Below, piece after piece: positions 16,781 to 23,577 of a stretch of DNA of 64,000 nucleotides (the first letter of the stretch is position 1; each line of letters begins with the position of its first letter). A program made the position numbers and the translations under genes. The notes beneath the pieces are model-generated. The model did not search any database. It was given only the letters and a program-made list of their open reading frames with translations, and had not been told where the DNA came from. Location of the stretch: positions 682,001 to 746,000 of the forward strand of contig NZ_FZPA01000001.1 in the NCBI RefSeq assembly GCF_900188185.1, given 5' to 3'. The stretch comes from Sphingopyxis indica (GTDB taxonomy: Bacteria > Pseudomonadota > Alphaproteobacteria > Sphingomonadales > Sphingomonadaceae).

Positions 16781-17413
16781 ATGGCCACCCTCGTCCTCCA
16801 CGATTATTTCCGCTCCTCGGCGAGCTTCCGCGTCCGCATCGCGCTCAATCTCAAAGGGCTCGACTATGATCGCGTCGAGGTCAGCCTGATTGCAGGCGAG
16901 CAGAAGAGCGACGCCTATCTCGCTCAAAATGCGCAGGGTTTCGTGCCGATGCTCGTCGCCGATGGCGAGCCGATCATCCAGAGCCTCGCGATCATCGACT
17001 GGCTCGACCGCGCCTTTCCCGAGCCGCGGCTGATCCCCGACGAGGCGATGCCGCGCGCGGTCGCCCTCGCGCAGGCGCATGTCGTCGCATGCGACATCCA
17101 TCCGCTCAACAATCTGCGCGTGCTCAAATATCTGACCAGGGACCTCGGGCTCAACGAGCAGACCAAGGATCATTGGTATCGCCACTGGGTCGCGGAAGGC
17201 TTCGACGCGCTCGAGGCGATGGCGGGCGAGGGGCGCTATCTGGGCGGCGACGTGCCGGGGATCGCCGACTGCTGCCTCGTCCCGCAAATGTATAATGCGC
17301 GGCGCTTCGACCTGCCGCTTGACGCTTATCCGCGCCTTGTCGCGATCGACGCGGCGTGCATGGAGCTCGAAGCCTTCCAGCGCGCGCATCCCGATGCGGT
17401 GAAGGCGGGTTAG
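16781..17413 (+). CDS. maiA: Maleylacetoacetate isomerase (zeta-class GST)
   Basis: Converts maleylacetoacetate to fumarylacetoacetate in tyrosine breakdown using glutathione. 210 aa; N-terminal thioredoxin fold followed by a helical domain. The zeta-class signature normally reads SSCSxRVRIAL; here it is SSASFRVRIAL, keeping Ser12-Ser13 but with Ala14 in place of the Cys. That Cys assists but is not the only catalytic group in studied enzymes, so activity is plausible. No other tyrosine-degradation gene is adjacent. Confidence 0.88.
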   Translation: MATLVLHDYFRSSASFRVRIALNLKGLDYDRVEVSLIAGEQKSDAYLAQNAQGFVPMLVADGEPIIQSLAIIDWLDRAFPEPRLIPDEAMPRAVALAQAHVVACDIHPLNNLRVLKYLTRDLGLNEQTKDHWYRHWVAEGFDALEAMAGEGRYLGGDVPGIADCCLVPQMYNARRFDLPLDAYPRLVAIDAACMELEAFQRAHPDAVKAG

Positions 17414-17427
17414 CTCAACCGATGATC

Positions 17428-17453
17428 GTCATTCCGGCCTTCGCCGGAATGAC
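17428..17453. repeat. Short single-hairpin palindromic repeat
   Basis: CGTCATTCCGGCCTTCGCCG and the following GAATGACC form one arm of the CGTCA-type repeat family, standing alone after maiA. Confidence 0.65.
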
Positions 17454-17517
17454 CGGCCATGGGGAAGCCGCGCATTCGGGGCTTGCGGGGCGCCGCGGCT
17501 GCGATAGGATGCGCGCT

Positions 17518-17964
17518 ATGGCCGCCAAGACGCTGAACCTCGACCAGTTCCTTCCCTATCGCCTGTCGATCGCGTCGAACGCGCTGTCGGAACGGATCGC
17601 CGAGGAATATCAAAGCCGCTTCGGGCTCAAGATCCCCGAATGGCGGCTGATGGCGGTGCTCGGCGAAGGCCAGCCGAAGACGCAGCGCGAACTCGTCGCC
17701 GCAACGCGGATGGACAAGGTGACGGTCAACCGCGCCGCCAAGGCGCTTGCCGACCGCCAGCTCATCGCGCGGCAGGCGCATGAAGCCGATGGGCGCTCGC
17801 ATCATCTGGCGCTCACCGAAACCGGCCGTTCGCTCTACGACGCCATCGGTCCCGCCGCCCTCGCGACCGAAGAACGGCTCGAATCGCACCTCAGCGCTGC
17901 CGAGCGCAAGACGCTGATGGCCATCCTCGCAAAGCTGATCAAAGCCGCCGAAGACTATGATTGA
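17518..17964 (+). CDS. MarR-family transcriptional regulator
   Basis: 148-aa winged-helix regulator with a helical dimerisation N-terminus, a DNA-binding region around TQRELVAATRMDKVTVNRA (about 60-80), a wing (EADGRSHHLALTETG) and a C-terminal dimer helix. AGGA (17506-17509) supports the ATG at 17518; an in-frame ATG at 17509 is possible. Its last 8 nt overlap the next gene, making it the first gene of the PqqD-like/HprK-like/nucleotidyltransferase operon and its probable regulator. Confidence 0.9.
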   Translation: MAAKTLNLDQFLPYRLSIASNALSERIAEEYQSRFGLKIPEWRLMAVLGEGQPKTQRELVAATRMDKVTVNRAAKALADRQLIARQAHEADGRSHHLALTETGRSLYDAIGPAALATEERLESHLSAAERKTLMAILAKLIKAAEDYD

Positions 17965-18238
17965 TCGCCGCTATCGTGCGGCGCCGAAAGAAGCGCTGCG
18001 CGTCGAGCCGCTGGGCGAGCTGACCGCGATCTTCGACCGGCGGTCGGTCCAGACGCATCTGGTCGTGTCGCCCATCCCCGAGATTCTCGCCGCAATGGGC
18101 GAGAAACCGTGCGACGCCGCGACCCTCGCCGCACGGCTCGCCGCCGATTTCGAGGTCGAGGCCGAAGGCGACGTGCGTGCGATCGTCGCCGAACGGCTGC
18201 GCGAACTCGCCGACCTCGGGCTGGTGGCGCCGGCGTGA
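17957..18238 (+). CDS. HPr-rel-A system PqqD family peptide chaperone
   Basis: 93 aa. A beta-rich N-terminus (LGELTAIFDRRSVQTHLV) followed by a winged-helix-like C-terminus (DAATLAARLAADFEVE, then RLRELADLGLV) matches the PqqD-related recognition fold that presents precursor peptides to modifying enzymes. It is the small component that accompanies HprK-related kinase A. The ATG at 17957 lies inside the end of the MarR gene, and its stop overlaps the kinase start in GTGA. No substrate peptide is recognised nearby. Confidence 0.8.
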   Translation: MIDRRYRAAPKEALRVEPLGELTAIFDRRSVQTHLVVSPIPEILAAMGEKPCDAATLAARLAADFEVEAEGDVRAIVAERLRELADLGLVAPA

Positions 18239-19101
18239 GGCACGGCACGCGCATCGCGGTCGGTCCGGTGCAATTCCGCGTCGGCAGCGATTGGGCGAAA
18301 CCGATCGCGGCACTCGACCGGCTCTACGCGGACTATCCGCAGCACGAGGACCGGCCCGCCGATGCGACGGTGCGGTTGTTCGCGGCGCGGCCGTGGCGGC
18401 GCTGGCTGCGCCCGTCGGTGCATATCGGCGGCGATTATGTCGTCCCCGACGCGCTGCCGCTGCCGCTCTCGATGGGGCTGCTCGCCGCCGAAATGGGGAT
18501 GAATTTGCAGGTCGCGCTGGGCTGGCGCCGGCACCTGCTGCTCCACGCGAGCGCGGTCGCGAAGAATGGCCGCGCGGTCATAATGTCGGGCGCGTCGGGA
18601 TCGGGCAAATCGACGCTCGCTGCGCTGCTCGGCGAGGGAGGCTGGCGCCTGATGGGCGACGAATTCACGCTGATCGCGCCCGCCAGCGGCGAGGCTTTCG
18701 CCTTTCCGCGCGCGGTGAGCCTGAAGAATCAGGCGATCGCCGAGCTCGCGGGGCGCGTCGATCCGGCGCGCCTCGGCCCGCTGCTCGCGGGCACGCCCAA
18801 GGGCGATATCCGCCACCTGATCCCGCGCGCCGATGCGATCGAGACAATGCATGAACCCGTGCGGCCCGCCTTGCTCCTCTTTCCGCGCTTCGGCGGCGAG
18901 GCGGCGGTCGTGCCGATGGGCGAGGGCGAAGCCTTCGTGCGGCTCACCGAGGCGTCGACCAACTATATCGCGCTGGGCGAAGCAGGTTTCGGCGCACTGA
19001 CCCGGCTGGTGCGCACCGTGCCGGCCTTCGCCATCGCCTATCCCGACAGCGCGAGCGGCATCGCGCTGGTCGAAGATCTGTGGGCGGAGGCGGCACGGTG
19101 A
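18235..19101 (+). CDS. HprK-related kinase A
   Basis: 288 aa related to HPr kinase/phosphorylase but lacking the N-terminal HPrK domain. Walker A is GASGSGKST (119-127); HASAV (104-108) and GDEF (141-144) occupy positions of the kinase His and Asp residues. HPr kinase phosphorylates a serine in a protein, so a peptide or protein substrate is plausible, perhaps one held by the PqqD-like partner. The GTG start at 18235 is chosen for the GTGA overlap with the previous stop; it also gives the full N-terminal domain. Confidence 0.85.
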   Translation: MRHGTRIAVGPVQFRVGSDWAKPIAALDRLYADYPQHEDRPADATVRLFAARPWRRWLRPSVHIGGDYVVPDALPLPLSMGLLAAEMGMNLQVALGWRRHLLLHASAVAKNGRAVIMSGASGSGKSTLAALLGEGGWRLMGDEFTLIAPASGEAFAFPRAVSLKNQAIAELAGRVDPARLGPLLAGTPKGDIRHLIPRADAIETMHEPVRPALLLFPRFGGEAAVVPMGEGEAFVRLTEASTNYIALGEAGFGALTRLVRTVPAFAIAYPDSASGIALVEDLWAEAAR

Positions 19102-20114
19102 GTGCGATGGCAATCCTCGTCGACCTGTTCGCCGGGCGCCGCGACGCGGCGGCGCTGGCCCCGCGCGAGTGGGACGGGGTGATCGGCGTCGCGCGGGCCG
19201 AGGCGATGCTCGCGACGCTGGCGCACCGGCTCGCCGAGGTCGACGTGCCTGAACCCGTTGCACTGCTGCTCGCCGACCAGCGCCGCGCCGCCGAAGTCGC
19301 GACCGGGCAGGCGCTATGGGAGGCCGAGATGGCGCGGCGCGCGCTCGCGCCCGAGCGGATCGAATTCGTGCTGCTGAAAGGCACTGCCTATGCCGCCGCG
19401 GGCCTGTCCTGCGCGGCGGGCCGGCAGATCGGCGACCTCGACATCCTCGTCGGCAAACACGATCTGGCGCGCACCGAAAATGCGCTGCTCAAGGCGGGGT
19501 GGGAGTGGGTGAAGTCCGATCCCTATGACGACGCCTATTACCGCGCGCATATGCACGAGCTGCCACCGCTGATTCACGGGGGCCGCGACCGGATGATCGA
19601 CGTCCATCACACAATCCTGCCGCGCACGCACAGGAAGACGCCCGATCCGCTCGCGATGCTCGCCGATGCGGTGCCGGCTCCGGACGGGTTCGCGGTGCTG
19701 TGTCCGACCGACATGGCGTGCCACTGCGCAGCGCACCTGCTCGCTGACGGCGATTTGCAGGGGGGATTGCGCAATTTGTGGGACTTCCACTGCCTTGCCA
19801 GCGACTTTGCCGTCGCCGATCCGGGGTTCTGGGGCAAGCTCGACGGGCGCGCCGATCAGCACGGGCTTCGAAGCGAAGTGCGCCGCGCGGCGCGGCTCGC
19901 GCGCGACCTGTTGGGCACGCTGCTTCCGTCGGGATGGGATGCGCACGACCCGACCGACCGCTGGTTTCACCGCCGCCTGCTCGCCCGAGACGATTGGGGG
20001 CGATCGAGCGATTTCCTGCTCCAGCAGGCCTTCTACATCCGCTCGCACTGGCTGCGGATGCCGCCGGCGATGCTCGCGCGTCATTTGTGGACCAAATGGC
20101 ACAAGCGGAGATGA
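19098..20114 (+). CDS. HPr-rel-A associated nucleotidyltransferase
   Basis: 338 aa of the uncharacterised nucleotidyltransferase family (NTP_transf_5-like). The conserved stretch VLLKGTAY (91-98) is followed by RQIGDLDILV (109-118), where Asp113 and Asp115 would bind metal; a later MIDVHHTI gives a third acidic site. It starts with GTG at 19098, again overlapping the previous stop (GTGA). It completes the three-part HPr-rel-A cassette; the transferred group and its target are unknown. Confidence 0.82.
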   Translation: MSAMAILVDLFAGRRDAAALAPREWDGVIGVARAEAMLATLAHRLAEVDVPEPVALLLADQRRAAEVATGQALWEAEMARRALAPERIEFVLLKGTAYAAAGLSCAAGRQIGDLDILVGKHDLARTENALLKAGWEWVKSDPYDDAYYRAHMHELPPLIHGGRDRMIDVHHTILPRTHRKTPDPLAMLADAVPAPDGFAVLCPTDMACHCAAHLLADGDLQGGLRNLWDFHCLASDFAVADPGFWGKLDGRADQHGLRSEVRRAARLARDLLGTLLPSGWDAHDPTDRWFHRRLLARDDWGRSSDFLLQQAFYIRSHWLRMPPAMLARHLWTKWHKRR

Positions 20115-20256: not shown

Positions 20257-20922
20257 TCAAAGCCTGGCGAGCAAAGGCACCAACTCGGCATAATCGCCGA
20301 TTACATGGTCGGCGCCCAGATCGCCGACCGGATGGTGAAGCTGGCCGAAATCGACCGCAACGCTCGTTGCACCGGCACCTCGTGCCGCCATGACGTCATG
20401 GATGCTGTCGCCGACGAAGGCGGTGCGTCCGCCCCCGCACGCGGCGATCATTGCGCGAACCGGCGCGGGCGACGGCTTCGCCTTGCCGGGGCCGAGCGTG
20501 TCGCCGCCGACGATCGCCGCCATGCGGCCCGCGATCCCCAGCGCATCCAGCAAGTCGCGCGCGAGCCGCTCGAGCTTGTTGGTCACCACCGCGGTCTTCA
20601 CCCCGAGCGCCGCCAGCCGGTCGAGTGCCTCGACCGCGCCCGGGAACAGCCGCGTCCGCTCGGCAACATGCGTTTCGTAATAGGCGATCAGCTCGCGATA
20701 AAGATGTCCTGAATCGTCGGGTATGCCGCCCGTCGCCGTCAGCCCCTGTTCGAGCAGATGCGCGGTGCCGAGCCCGATCATCGGCCGCACCGCCTCGACA
20801 TCGAGCGGGTCGCGCCCGGCGACGGCGAGCGCATGGTTGAGCGCGGCGGCGATGTCGCCCACGCTGTCGACGAGCGTGCCGTCGAGGTCGAAGCCGACGA
20901 TGGCGAAGGGAAAATCGTGCAT
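20257..20922 (-). CDS. gph: Phosphoglycolate phosphatase-type HAD hydrolase
   Basis: 221 aa. HAD motif I is DLDGTLVDS (about 12-20), motif II a threonine in VVTNK, then a conserved Lys, and motif IV GDSIHD. A helical cap lies between motifs I and II. It matches the Gph family, which clears 2-phosphoglycolate from DNA repair. The ATG at 20922 is used; ATG 20934 in frame is an alternative, and neither has a clear Shine-Dalgarno. It is divergent from glmU with about 50 bp between them. Confidence 0.88.
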   Translation of the reverse strand: MHDFPFAIVGFDLDGTLVDSVGDIAAALNHALAVAGRDPLDVEAVRPMIGLGTAHLLEQGLTATGGIPDDSGHLYRELIAYYETHVAERTRLFPGAVEALDRLAALGVKTAVVTNKLERLARDLLDALGIAGRMAAIVGGDTLGPGKAKPSPAPVRAMIAACGGGRTAFVGDSIHDVMAARGAGATSVAVDFGQLHHPVGDLGADHVIGDYAELVPLLARL

Positions 20923-20970
20923 CGCGGGCGACATGCCGCGATGCTCTGGAATCCGCAAGGATTTGCTGGC

Positions 20971-22329
20971 ATGGCAGCGCGCATGAGCAACGCGATCGCC
21001 GCCGTCATCCTCGCCGCGGGCAAGGGCACCCGCATGAAGTCCGATCTGCACAAGGTGCTGCACCCGATCGCGGGCCGCCCGATGCTGCTGCACCTGATGG
21101 CGAGCGTCGACGAACTGAACCCCGCGAAAAAGGTGGTCGTCGTCGGCGACAAGGCGGACCAGATCGAAGCCGCGCTGAACGGGAGCGCCGCGCTCGCGGT
21201 GCAGGAGCCGCAACTCGGCACCGGCCATGCGGTGCAACAGGCCGAGGCGGCGCTGGCGGGTTTCGATGGCGACGTGCTGATCCTCTATGGCGACGTTCCT
21301 TTCGTGCCGCCTGCGACGATGCGCGCGATGGTCGACCGCCTCAACGCGCCCGACGCGCCCGCGGTCGTCGTCCTCGCTTTCGAGCCCGCCGATCCGCTGC
21401 AATATGGGCGTGTCATCACCGACGGTGACCGCGTCGTGAAGATGGTCGAACACAAGGACGCGACCGAGGCCGAGCGCGCGGTGCGGCTGTGCAATTCGGG
21501 GCTGATGGCGGCGAAGGCGCGCGATCTGTTCGCGCTGCTCGCGCGCGTCACCGACGACAATGCCGCGAAGGAATATTATCTCGTCGACATCGTCAATATC
21601 GCCAACGCCGACGGGCGGCATTGTGCGGTAGCGAGGGCCGACCCGGCCGATGTCGCCGGCATCAACAGCCGCGCCGAACTCGCCGCCGCCGAGGCGCAGT
21701 GGCAGAGGTTCAAGCGCGAGGAGGCGATGGCGGAGGGCGCATCGCTGCGCGCGCCCGAAACCGTGTGGTTTTCCTGGGATACCGAGCTGGGCCGCGACGT
21801 TACGATCGAGCCCAATGTCGTGTTCGGCCCCGGCGTGACGATCGCCGACAATGTCATCGTCAAGGCGTACAGCCACATCGAGGGCGCGACGATCGCGGCG
21901 GGGTGCGAGGTCGGCCCCTTCGCGCGGCTGCGTCCCGGCACGGTGCTCGGCGAAAAGGCGAAGATCGGCAATTTCGTCGAAACCAAGAAGGCCGAGCTCG
22001 GCAAGGGCGCCAAGGCGAACCATCTGACCTATCTCGGCGACGTCACGGTCGGCGCGAACGCCAATATCGGCGCGGGCACGATCACCTGCAATTATGACGG
22101 CTATTTCAAATATCGCACCGAGATCGGCGAAAATGCCTTCATCGGATCGAACAGCGCGCTCGTCGCGCCGGTGAAGATCGGGCGCGACGCGATCGTCGGC
22201 GCGGGCAGCGCGGTGACGCGCGACGTCGCCGATGGCGAGCTGCGCCTCGTGCGCGGCGAACAGCTCGTCAAGCCGGGCTGGGCCGATCGCTTCCACGACG
22301 CGATGCGCAAGAAAAAGGCGGAGAAATAG
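20971..22329 (+). CDS. glmU: Bifunctional GlcNAc-1-P uridyltransferase / GlcN-1-P acetyltransferase
   Basis: Performs the last two steps to UDP-GlcNAc. The N-terminal uridyltransferase begins VILAAGKGTRMKSDLHK; the C-terminal half is a left-handed beta-helix acetyltransferase with hexapeptide repeats (GVTIADNVIVKAYSHIEGA) and the active-site region HLTYLGDVTVG...NIGAGTITCNYDG. 452 aa from ATG 20971, chosen for AAGGA at 20957-20961; ATG 20983 would give 448 aa. It is followed, after other genes, by glmS. Confidence 0.97.
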   Translation: MAARMSNAIAAVILAAGKGTRMKSDLHKVLHPIAGRPMLLHLMASVDELNPAKKVVVVGDKADQIEAALNGSAALAVQEPQLGTGHAVQQAEAALAGFDGDVLILYGDVPFVPPATMRAMVDRLNAPDAPAVVVLAFEPADPLQYGRVITDGDRVVKMVEHKDATEAERAVRLCNSGLMAAKARDLFALLARVTDDNAAKEYYLVDIVNIANADGRHCAVARADPADVAGINSRAELAAAEAQWQRFKREEAMAEGASLRAPETVWFSWDTELGRDVTIEPNVVFGPGVTIADNVIVKAYSHIEGATIAAGCEVGPFARLRPGTVLGEKAKIGNFVETKKAELGKGAKANHLTYLGDVTVGANANIGAGTITCNYDGYFKYRTEIGENAFIGSNSALVAPVKIGRDAIVGAGSAVTRDVADGELRLVRGEQLVKPGWADRFHDAMRKKKAEK

Positions 22330-22928: not shown

Positions 22929-22963
22929 TTGCAATGATATCATGATATGATATCTATATATCA
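22929..22963 (+). promoter_or_regulatory. Promoter and operator of the vapBC module
   Basis: An AT-rich island in GC-rich DNA. ATGATATCAT (22934-22943) is a perfect palindrome and GATATC recurs at 22936 and 22949, a likely binding array for the RHH antitoxin. TTGCAA (22929-22934) and TATCTA (22951-22956) are spaced 16 nt, placing the start point at about the antitoxin ATG; the transcript may be leaderless. Confidence 0.5.
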
Positions 22964-23205
22964 TGACTCGCATCTTGACCGAAATCCCCGACGAAGACGT
23001 GCAAAAGCTGGACGCGCTCGCGGCGCGGACCAACCGGTCACGCGCGGCCGCCATTCGCGAGGCCGTGCGGCTCTACCTCGTTCAGAATAGCGGCAGCACC
23101 GACTGGATCGCGCGCGGCGCGGGCTATTGGAAGGACCGGGCCGACATCGGCGACGCGGTCGATTATCAGCGCGCGCTTCGCGAAGACCGCGATTCATTCG
23201 ATTGA
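22963..23205 (+). CDS. Ribbon-helix-helix antitoxin (CopG/VapB type)
   Basis: 80 aa. The N-terminus MTRILTEIPDEDVQKLDALAA with RTNRSRAAAIREAVRLYL is a ribbon-helix-helix DNA-binding fold; the acidic, flexible tail would wrap the toxin. No Shine-Dalgarno precedes the ATG, which abuts an AT-rich operator, consistent with a leaderless mRNA. The toxin gene starts 6 nt after the stop. Confidence 0.85.
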   Translation: MTRILTEIPDEDVQKLDALAARTNRSRAAAIREAVRLYLVQNSGSTDWIARGAGYWKDRADIGDAVDYQRALREDRDSFD

Positions 23206-23211
23206 GCGCCC

Positions 23212-23577
23212 GTGTCCGATCCCTTTTTCGATACTAATATTCTGATCGACTGGTTGAAAGACCGGCCGCAGGCGAGCGCCGAACTGTCGCGCTACAAGCG
23301 ACATCGCATCAGCCGCATCGTGTGGACCGAAATATTGGCGGGCGAGTCGCTCGAGGGCCGCGATGCGGTGCAGCAACTGCTCGCGCCCTTTGAAATCGTC
23401 GAGATCGACGCGCGGATCGCTTCGGCCGCTGCCGACATCCGCCATCGCACGCGAATGAAGCTGCTCGACGCCTATGTTCTGGCGACCGCGCAGGTGAACG
23501 GCGCGATATTGATTACCCGCAATAGCAAGGATTTTCCGGCGAACATGCCGGGCATCCGCATTCCTTACACAATCTGA
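23212..23577 (+). CDS. PIN-domain toxin (VapC type)
   Basis: 121-aa PIN-fold ribonuclease. The acidic metal-binding residues are visible: Asp7 (FFDTNILID), Glu40 (WTEILAGE), Asp86 (KLLDAYVLATA) and Asp107 after TRNSK. VapC toxins cut tRNA or rRNA when freed from VapB; the target here is unknown. The start is GTG 23212. The module is inserted between glmU and glmS, genes often adjacent in relatives. Confidence 0.88.
   Translation: MSDPFFDTNILIDWLKDRPQASAELSRYKRHRISRIVWTEILAGESLEGRDAVQQLLAPFEIVEIDARIASAAADIRHRTRMKLLDAYVLATAQVNGAILITRNSKDFPANMPGIRIPYTI

Follow-up and report, generated by a model that had tools for sequence, protein, structure and literature searches.

What does the HPr-rel-A cassette of Sphingopyxis indica act on, and does the regulator gene that overlaps it belong to the same system? 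The cassette is located in a 64,000-nucleotide (nt) stretch of the S. indica genome, referred to here as the window, and consists of genes for a PqqD-like protein, an HprK-related kinase, and a nucleotidyltransferase, which are preceded by a gene for a MarR regulator. The cassette is probably one half of a split module. The other half, positioned 316 kb away, encodes a small protein with predicted export by twin-arginine translocation (Tat), and this protein is the likely substrate. This proposal is built on the anatomy and co-inheritance of the two halves, and the chemistry would be that of a Gram-negative analogue of the LPP and paeninodin phosphopeptide systems. Coordinates are those of the window, the family is Sphingomonadaceae, the genus is that of the window, the class is Alphaproteobacteria, and the phylum is Pseudomonadota. 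Sampled genomes, contigs, and fetched loci carry the letters G, C, and L, respectively, and G000 is the genome of the window.

Genes and active sites of the cassette

The overlapping genes are the following:
17518–17964, + strand: MarR regulator (MarR_2 PF12802, 49.3 bits, cut-off 27), a neighbour by rearrangement, outside the module
17957–18238, + strand: PqqD-like protein of the type of the recognition element (RRE) of ribosomally synthesized and post-translationally modified peptides (RiPPs), predicted to bind the partner peptide (PqqD_rel_X TIGR04353, 53.6 bits, cut-off 35)
18235–19101, + strand: HprK-related kinase A, predicted to phosphorylate a peptide serine (HprK_rel_A TIGR04352, 230.8 bits, cut-off 200)
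19098–20114, + strand: nucleotidyltransferase, predicted to attach a group to the peptide after its phosphorylation (NTP_transf_5 PF14907, 175.6 bits, cut-off 31.2)

MarR and pqqD overlap by 8 nt, and GTGA overlaps join pqqD to the kinase gene and the kinase gene to that of the nucleotidyltransferase, the last two genes starting with GTG. The initial annotation of the locus had described four successively overlapping genes, and its coordinates, frames, overlaps, and families were all confirmed. The genes for the PqqD-like protein, kinase, and nucleotidyltransferase form an HPr-rel-A cassette, the three members of which are present in order and score above their cut-offs. The arrangement is far from chance, since it recurs across the phylum. 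Against the Pfam PqqD model, the PqqD-like protein scores 17.8 bits, below the cut-off of 23.4. Kinase homologues P0001–P0120 are labelled PF27840.1 in the protein database; hmmscan with our copy of Pfam gave no such match for the kinase of the window. The relatives named by the protein matches are Sphingopyxis.

The kinase residues His104, Ser121-Gly122, Gly124-Lys125-Ser126-Thr127, and Asp142-Glu143 are identical in all 61 aligned family kinases, so the P-loop that had been described as intact, with its G-x-G-K-S-T core, is preserved in every one of them. Similarly, Lys94-Gly95, Gly112-Asp113, Asp115, Asp168, and His170 of the nucleotidyltransferase are identical in 60 of 60 family sequences. 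In a profile alignment with HPr kinase 1jb1 (E 0.0024), the kinase matches across the histidine, P-loop, and first aspartate. The AlphaFold2 model of the nucleotidyltransferase (predicted local distance difference test score (pLDDT) 94.0, predicted template modelling score 0.92) has a nucleotidyltransferase fold. The best match in the fold search was MenT1 (E 5.8e-4), aminoglycoside nucleotidyltransferases were matched too, and FKRP was a weak match (E 0.11), while no sequence relatives of the protein were found in the PDB. The initial annotation considered the set to be a protein or peptide modification system and had named degraded active sites as evidence to the contrary. Such degradation is not seen in the kinase or the nucleotidyltransferase, as the catalytic residues are kept across the family alignments, and the idea is supported to the extent that this is a modifying cassette with intact active sites.

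A co-inherited small protein encoded elsewhere in the genome

Among 199 sampled family genomes, 61 contain the kinase above the cut-off. About 20 kb were fetched around 60 of these kinase genes, and the 61st is that of the window. Clustering of the open reading frames (ORFs) around the kinase identified one small ORF that precedes pqqD at 53 of the 60 loci, and 34 such ORFs were aligned to build profile A1. The encoded proteins have an R-R pair, a hydrophobic stretch, an A-x-A site, and two invariant cysteines, and in their mature part S-x-x-x-C is found close to the start and C-x-x-S towards the end. In the genome of the window, the partner gene (G000:C31:383903-384316, equivalent to L101:9903-10316) encodes a protein of 137 amino acids, the motif serine of which is Ser132 in C-F-A-S. 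A search of all frames of the window with A1 gave no match better than E 0.11, in line with the earlier remark that no substrate peptide is seen at the locus, and the suggestion that it may be encoded elsewhere is supported by the candidate on contig C31. With its partner gene so distant, the cassette appeared to lack a substrate.

None of the Pfam and NCBIfam families covers the 34 members of A1, apart from one weak signal-type match in Pfam and two in NCBIfam. The Tat-type signal is seen in the alignments, both in A1 and in the alignment of the main phylum cluster described below (A5), and curated models match few members (TIGR01409 one of 34, PF10518 one weakly). TatC is present in the genome of the window. 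The partner protein is a predicted Tat-exported protein and the likely substrate of the kinase.

The peptide gene is co-inherited with the cassette. The A1 profile matches all 61 family genomes that have the kinase and one of the 138 that lack it; the search for a co-occurring small ORF that had been suggested for this locus thus found one in every kinase-bearing family genome. The sole kinase-less match, in G017, is weak (E 3.5e-5), corresponds to a 203-residue ORF without the motif, and is apparently spurious. Since 34 of the 61 genomes contributed rows to A1, the other 27, including that of the window, are independent detections. Fisher's test of co-occurrence gives p 5.5e-51 with relatedness ignored; therefore, the better count is that of the six genera with both kinase-plus and kinase-minus genomes, in all six of which the peptide agrees with the kinase. 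In 7 of 20 kinase-less loci, which were picked by eye and include 8 from the mixed genera, pstS-phoR is followed immediately by gph-glmU, with all four genes of the unit absent.

The peptide gene is normally located directly before pqqD. It adjoins pqqD in 57 of the 61 family genomes, and A1 finds it in 57 of the 60 fetched loci. The distance from the stop of the peptide gene to the start of pqqD has a median of 11 nt and is at most 200 nt in 52 of 57 cases. The linkage was broken independently twice with both halves kept: between peptide and pqqD in the genus of the window, and between pqqD and the kinase gene in G040, where peptide and PqqD (L104, TIGR04353 41.1 bits) are on one contig and kinase and nucleotidyltransferase on another. 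In L090, from a genome that is 86% complete and 7% contaminated (G007), the kinase, nucleotidyltransferase, and peptide genes all seem to be in pieces.

Rearrangement within the genus

A rearrangement in the genus separated the peptide gene from the cassette. In three genus genomes, G181, G762, and G807 (L304–L306), the order cytochrome-maiA-MarR-FAH is intact away from the cassette, which is still linked to the peptide gene. In the window and two genus-mates (L073, L075), the order is maiA-MarR-pqqD, and the peptide genes of these three genomes (L101–L103) are positioned between a phoR-like gene and FAH. The adjacencies peptide-pqqD and MarR-FAH have been exchanged for MarR-pqqD and peptide-FAH. 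The comparison of these loci defines two features of the window:
16781–17413, + strand: maiA, maleylacetoacetate isomerase (TIGR01262, 255.3 bits), left side of the rearranged junction and old neighbour of MarR
17414–17956, no strand: MarR-holding stretch, the maiA-MarR side joined to pqqD, with the junction at the MarR/pqqD overlap

The genes that precede maiA in the window, for a right-handed beta-helix protein (PF13229, 14302–15594) and an SO2930-type dihaem cytochrome (TIGR03806, 15414–16616), stay with maiA across the genus. In the complete genus genome G827 (L307), which lacks kinase and peptide, MarR is 96 nt from gph, which corresponds to the rearranged junction minus the cassette. Our first impression was of co-loss after the separation, and it was discarded: G827 also lacks a close FAH (best identity 27%), so a larger deletion is possible.

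Distribution beyond the family

The kinase scores above the cut-off in 8 of 289 genomes sampled across the class, 6 of them outside the family, and a Tat-like small ORF precedes pqqD in 5 of these 6 loci. The sixth, L118, is on a short contig, and its upstream ORF was read by eye as a polysaccharide export protein. Across the phylum, 51 of 299 genomes have the kinase above the cut-off. We fetched 40 phylum loci, 39 above the cut-off and one below, the remainder of the 51 being family members or not fetched. A small Tat-type protein is present in 34 of the 40 loci, 27 of which form one homologous cluster, and 7 are divergent.

For the named loci outside the family, the best 80 among 267 confirmed relatives were kept, and these include Magnetococcales, Chromatium, Massilia, Thiobacillus, Zooshikella, and Methylomonas. 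A signal hidden Markov model (HMM), for which 84 signals of the earlier loci served as the training set, found the upstream ORF in 33 of the 80 named loci at E 0.1 and none of 5805 other ORFs; there are few true Tat proteins in these loci, so this control mainly shows how well ordinary ORFs are rejected and tells less about other Tat signals. When iterated without regard to place, the signal HMM matched 70 of the 80 loci with 4 matches elsewhere, 3 of which are the same kind of protein encoded downstream of the cassette. Altogether, 78 of the 80 named loci encode a small protein with this kind of signal, 5 of them assigned by eye, and in the remaining two the kinase gene is preceded by 514 and 743 bases of sequence. 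In the below-cut-off relatives L123, L124, and L194, the PqqD-like domain is apparently fused to the kinase. L123 has PF05402 at 28 bits together with a P-loop, and a nucleotidyltransferase nearby, whereas L194 has an upstream ORF of 70 amino acids with a signal-like stretch.

Motif serine and C-terminal types

Close to the C terminus, the pattern [ST]-C-[WYFL]-x-S-[FLIYVM], written after seeing the family, phylum, and class peptides, is found in 60 of 61 family peptides, 27 of 27 in the main phylum cluster, and peptides of 3 of 5 class loci, compared with 4 of 6142 other ORFs. The family exception is the broken gene in G007. The serine of this C-x-x-S motif is the only one invariant in both A1 and A5.

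The kinase tree has 125 tips, representing 76 of the 80 named, 34 of the 40 phylum, 4 of the 8 class, and 10 of the 60 family loci, plus the window; L199 and L269 were left out. The three C-terminal types of the peptides require 2 changes on this tree, which is the minimum, compared with at least 41 for shuffled types, an agreement that has to be read with the fact that the kinase tree also follows organism kinship. The types of L216, L198, L220, L261, L262, L183, L226, L229, L272, L258, L155, L157, L182, L193, and L117 were set by eye. The commonest partner in the named loci is the 'GYWK' type (for example, L232 and L237), which has about 200 amino acids and a conserved C terminus, D-I-V-x-Y-L-x-x-T, that may carry another acceptor. 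The C-x-x-S motif as a universal mark of the peptides was rejected on the basis of the held-out loci described below.

Proposed pathway and alternative explanations

The steps proposed here follow the precedent of the PadeK/PsmN and LppK/LppB systems, as described in PMC9266682 and PMC13381572. In the cytoplasm, the PqqD-like protein would bind the peptide at its N-terminal leader or Tat-signal region. The HprK-like kinase would then phosphorylate the conserved serine close to the C-terminal end (Ser132 in the copy from the genome of the window), and the nucleotidyltransferase may in turn attach a nucleotidyl or a sugar-phosphate group to the resulting phosphoserine. The folded, modified protein would be exported by Tat, its signal would be cut off, and the end product probably acts on the cell surface or within the periplasm.

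Several observations weigh against a split module with the small protein as substrate. Binding, phosphorylation, and export are all predicted. The kinase has D-E in place of the D-D of HPr kinase, and the family alignment A1 contains a second invariant serine, Ser53. In the held-out set of 80 named loci, C-x-x-S is found in 17, one of them spurious (L204), compared with 2 of 7728 other ORFs. The 78 peptides of the named loci comprise 17 with C-x-x-S, 4 with A-x-x-S, 46 of the 'GYWK' type without such a serine, and 11 unassigned by pattern. Profile comparison aligns A1 with A5 along the signal and first cysteine alone (44 columns, probability 96.7), so the C-terminal likeness of the two groups rests on a short motif. 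The peptide was not found in 5 of the 39 above-cut-off phylum loci (L170, L171, L172, L185, and L192), of which L171 is near a contig edge. The structure model of the partner protein is poor (pLDDT 65) and too weak to use, and no visible activity of LppN was reported for the host used in PMC13381572.

The co-inheritance could also be explained by the small Tat-type protein being a member of the module in another capacity, such as a periplasmic partner or sensor, with the enzymes acting on something else. The substrate role is a prediction, and the differing C-terminal types, the commonest of which outside the family lacks the serine motif, fit such another role, as do the four PF13471 loci elsewhere in the genome of the window, which could supply other peptides. 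We consider it unlikely: a PqqD-like RRE calls for a peptide client; in G040, the peptide remains beside pqqD even though the kinase and nucleotidyltransferase are elsewhere; and the C-terminal type tracks the kinase tree.

Alternatively, the module might decorate a surface polysaccharide or lipid by LicD/FKRP-like chemistry, with the peptide as a carrier or primer only. Some units outside the family are inside PEP-CTERM/XrtA polysaccharide loci; in L163, the unit is located between PEP-CTERM/XrtA glycosyltransferases and an XrtA amidotransferase (TIGR03087, TIGR03088, TIGR03108). Furthermore, FKRP is among the weak fold matches of the nucleotidyltransferase, and LPP clusters are located in capsule loci (PMC13381572). 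However, the XrtA setting is that of one locus annotated here, and the neighbours in the family are pst-phoR and gph-glmU-glmS, which remain where the unit is absent, which makes this explanation very unlikely.

The initial annotation regarded MarR as an added control layer, which would make the locus a MarR-controlled four-gene operon. Besides the 8-nt overlap, the genus speaks for it: in 80 genus genomes, 77 of which have the kinase and 77 the partner peptide, MarR adjoins the kinase in 73 of the 77 kinase-bearing genomes, so some local co-transcription is likely there. The peptide adjoins the kinase in 3 others, never together with MarR, and G786 has a contig break. However, the MarR orthologue is present in 80 of the 80 genomes, including those without kinase or peptide, and it is still grouped with maiA and FAH in the three genomes of the genus in which peptide and cassette have stayed linked. 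Among the 60 other family loci, a kinase-adjacent MarR homologue was found in two, both from the genus, giving 3 of 61 with the window; when its conservation as the first gene was checked, as had been suggested, it was absent from 58 of the 60, which counts against the control layer. These distributions led us to reject MarR as a member of the system and leave the operon highly improbable. MarR is a bystander by rearrangement and has no part in the module.

Finally, a toxin-antitoxin or defence unit with a MenT/MNT-like nucleotidyltransferase toxin, to which the best fold match to MenT1 might point, is scarcely credible, as the same fold is matched by aminoglycoside nucleotidyltransferases and four co-inherited genes including one for an exported small protein are unlike a toxin pair.

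The split module, with the small protein as the likely client of the enzymes, can be placed in a wider context. The Pseudomonadota may have a peptide class with a new route, in which the Tat signal is the leader read by PqqD, and the folded precursor is phosphorylated on the C-x-x-S serine, capped in the cytoplasm, and exported by Tat. This would be a Gram-negative answer to LPP and paeninodin that is spread through most carriers of HPr-rel-A. We put this reading as a whole forward tentatively and regard it as rather doubtful.

Neighbouring genes

On the right side, the cassette is flanked by two genes:
20257–20997, − strand: gph-like HAD phosphatase (PF13419), kept in genomes without the cassette
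20977–22329, + strand: glmU, a background neighbour according to the neighbour comparison and empty sites

The idea that pst-phoR and gph-glmU are functional partners of the cassette is weakened, because these neighbours remain when the unit is absent, as in the empty sites. Control through a Pho box by the neighbouring phoR-like gene was also rejected: in the 330 nt before the signal of 57 loci, the mean number of mismatches was 4.86, compared with 5.31 in shuffles, and there was no convincing site. A vapBC-like pair, consisting of a ribbon-helix-helix protein (PF01402) and a PIN-domain protein (PF01850), is encoded at 22963–23577 between glmU and glmS. ORFs similar to the ribbon-helix-helix and PIN genes are at the same place in 15 and 16 of the 60 family loci, respectively. 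The four PF13471 genes of the genome of the window, of the lasso leader-peptidase type, are on contigs C7, C13, C20, and C24 (L310–L313), and the cassette and peptide gene are on C31.

Comparison with known systems

A search of open-access text for HPr-rel-A or HprK-related kinase A, for HprK in connection with PqqD and Tat or with exosortase systems, and for RiPP precursors with Tat signals found no papers, which does not imply absence from print. The HPr-rel-A models (TIGR04352, TIGR04353, PF14907) comprise the same three members in the same order as in the window and name no substrate, whereas here there is a fourth co-inherited gene, unlinked in the genus of the window, for a small protein predicted to be exported. 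HPr kinase/phosphorylase shares the aligned histidine, P-loop, and first aspartate with the kinase of the window. However, the kinase scores 16.6 bits against TIGR00679 (cut-off 240), its second aspartate is replaced by glutamate, and there is no adjacent HPr gene.

According to two reports, the HprK-like kinases PadeK, ThcoK, SyanK, PsmK, and LppK phosphorylate a serine of the precursor, and an RRE and a nucleotidyltransferase are encoded in the same clusters (PMC9266682, PMC13381572). PadeK, ThcoK, and SyanK act on a C-terminal serine, and PsmN is needed for the placing of hexoses on the phosphorylated serine (PMC9266682). The paeninodin and pseudomycoidin systems (PadeK, PsmK, PsmN) have in common with the proposed module the HprK-like kinase directed at a C-terminal serine, the nucleotidyltransferase homologue, and a B1-type RRE, judging from the same paper. 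They differ in that no cyclase or B2 protease is among the conserved neighbours of the family loci, the PF13471 loci being on other contigs.

The LPP clusters of Bacillota (lppA-K-B-S-D-N) resemble the proposed module in the combination of a discrete RRE, an HprK-like kinase, and an NTP transferase with a small exported precursor. According to PMC13381572, LppK phosphorylates Ser3, LppB is the RRE, and the clusters are embedded in polysaccharide loci, as is the unit in L163. The differences include the leader motif [Y/W]xxPx[LVIAFY], which is found in 0 of 61 family peptides, and the SipW-like SpI peptidase and MsbA-like transporter, neither of which is among the conserved neighbours in the 60 family loci, where no dedicated profile was run. 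The precursors described here are larger, have a C-terminal serine motif, and are predicted to use Tat export. The module would thus operate in the manner of LPP and paeninodin clusters without being either of them.

HPr-rel-A proteins are widely annotated with no substrate given, and the fourth gene makes a testable pair with a named residue. At this locus, the client had been parted from the cassette by a rearrangement and a bystander regulator had taken its place, and thus a reading limited to the operon misled. If the proposed chemistry is right, modified peptides would leave the cytoplasm by a path for the export of folded proteins, and the phosphopeptide systems of Bacillota would extend across Pseudomonadota.

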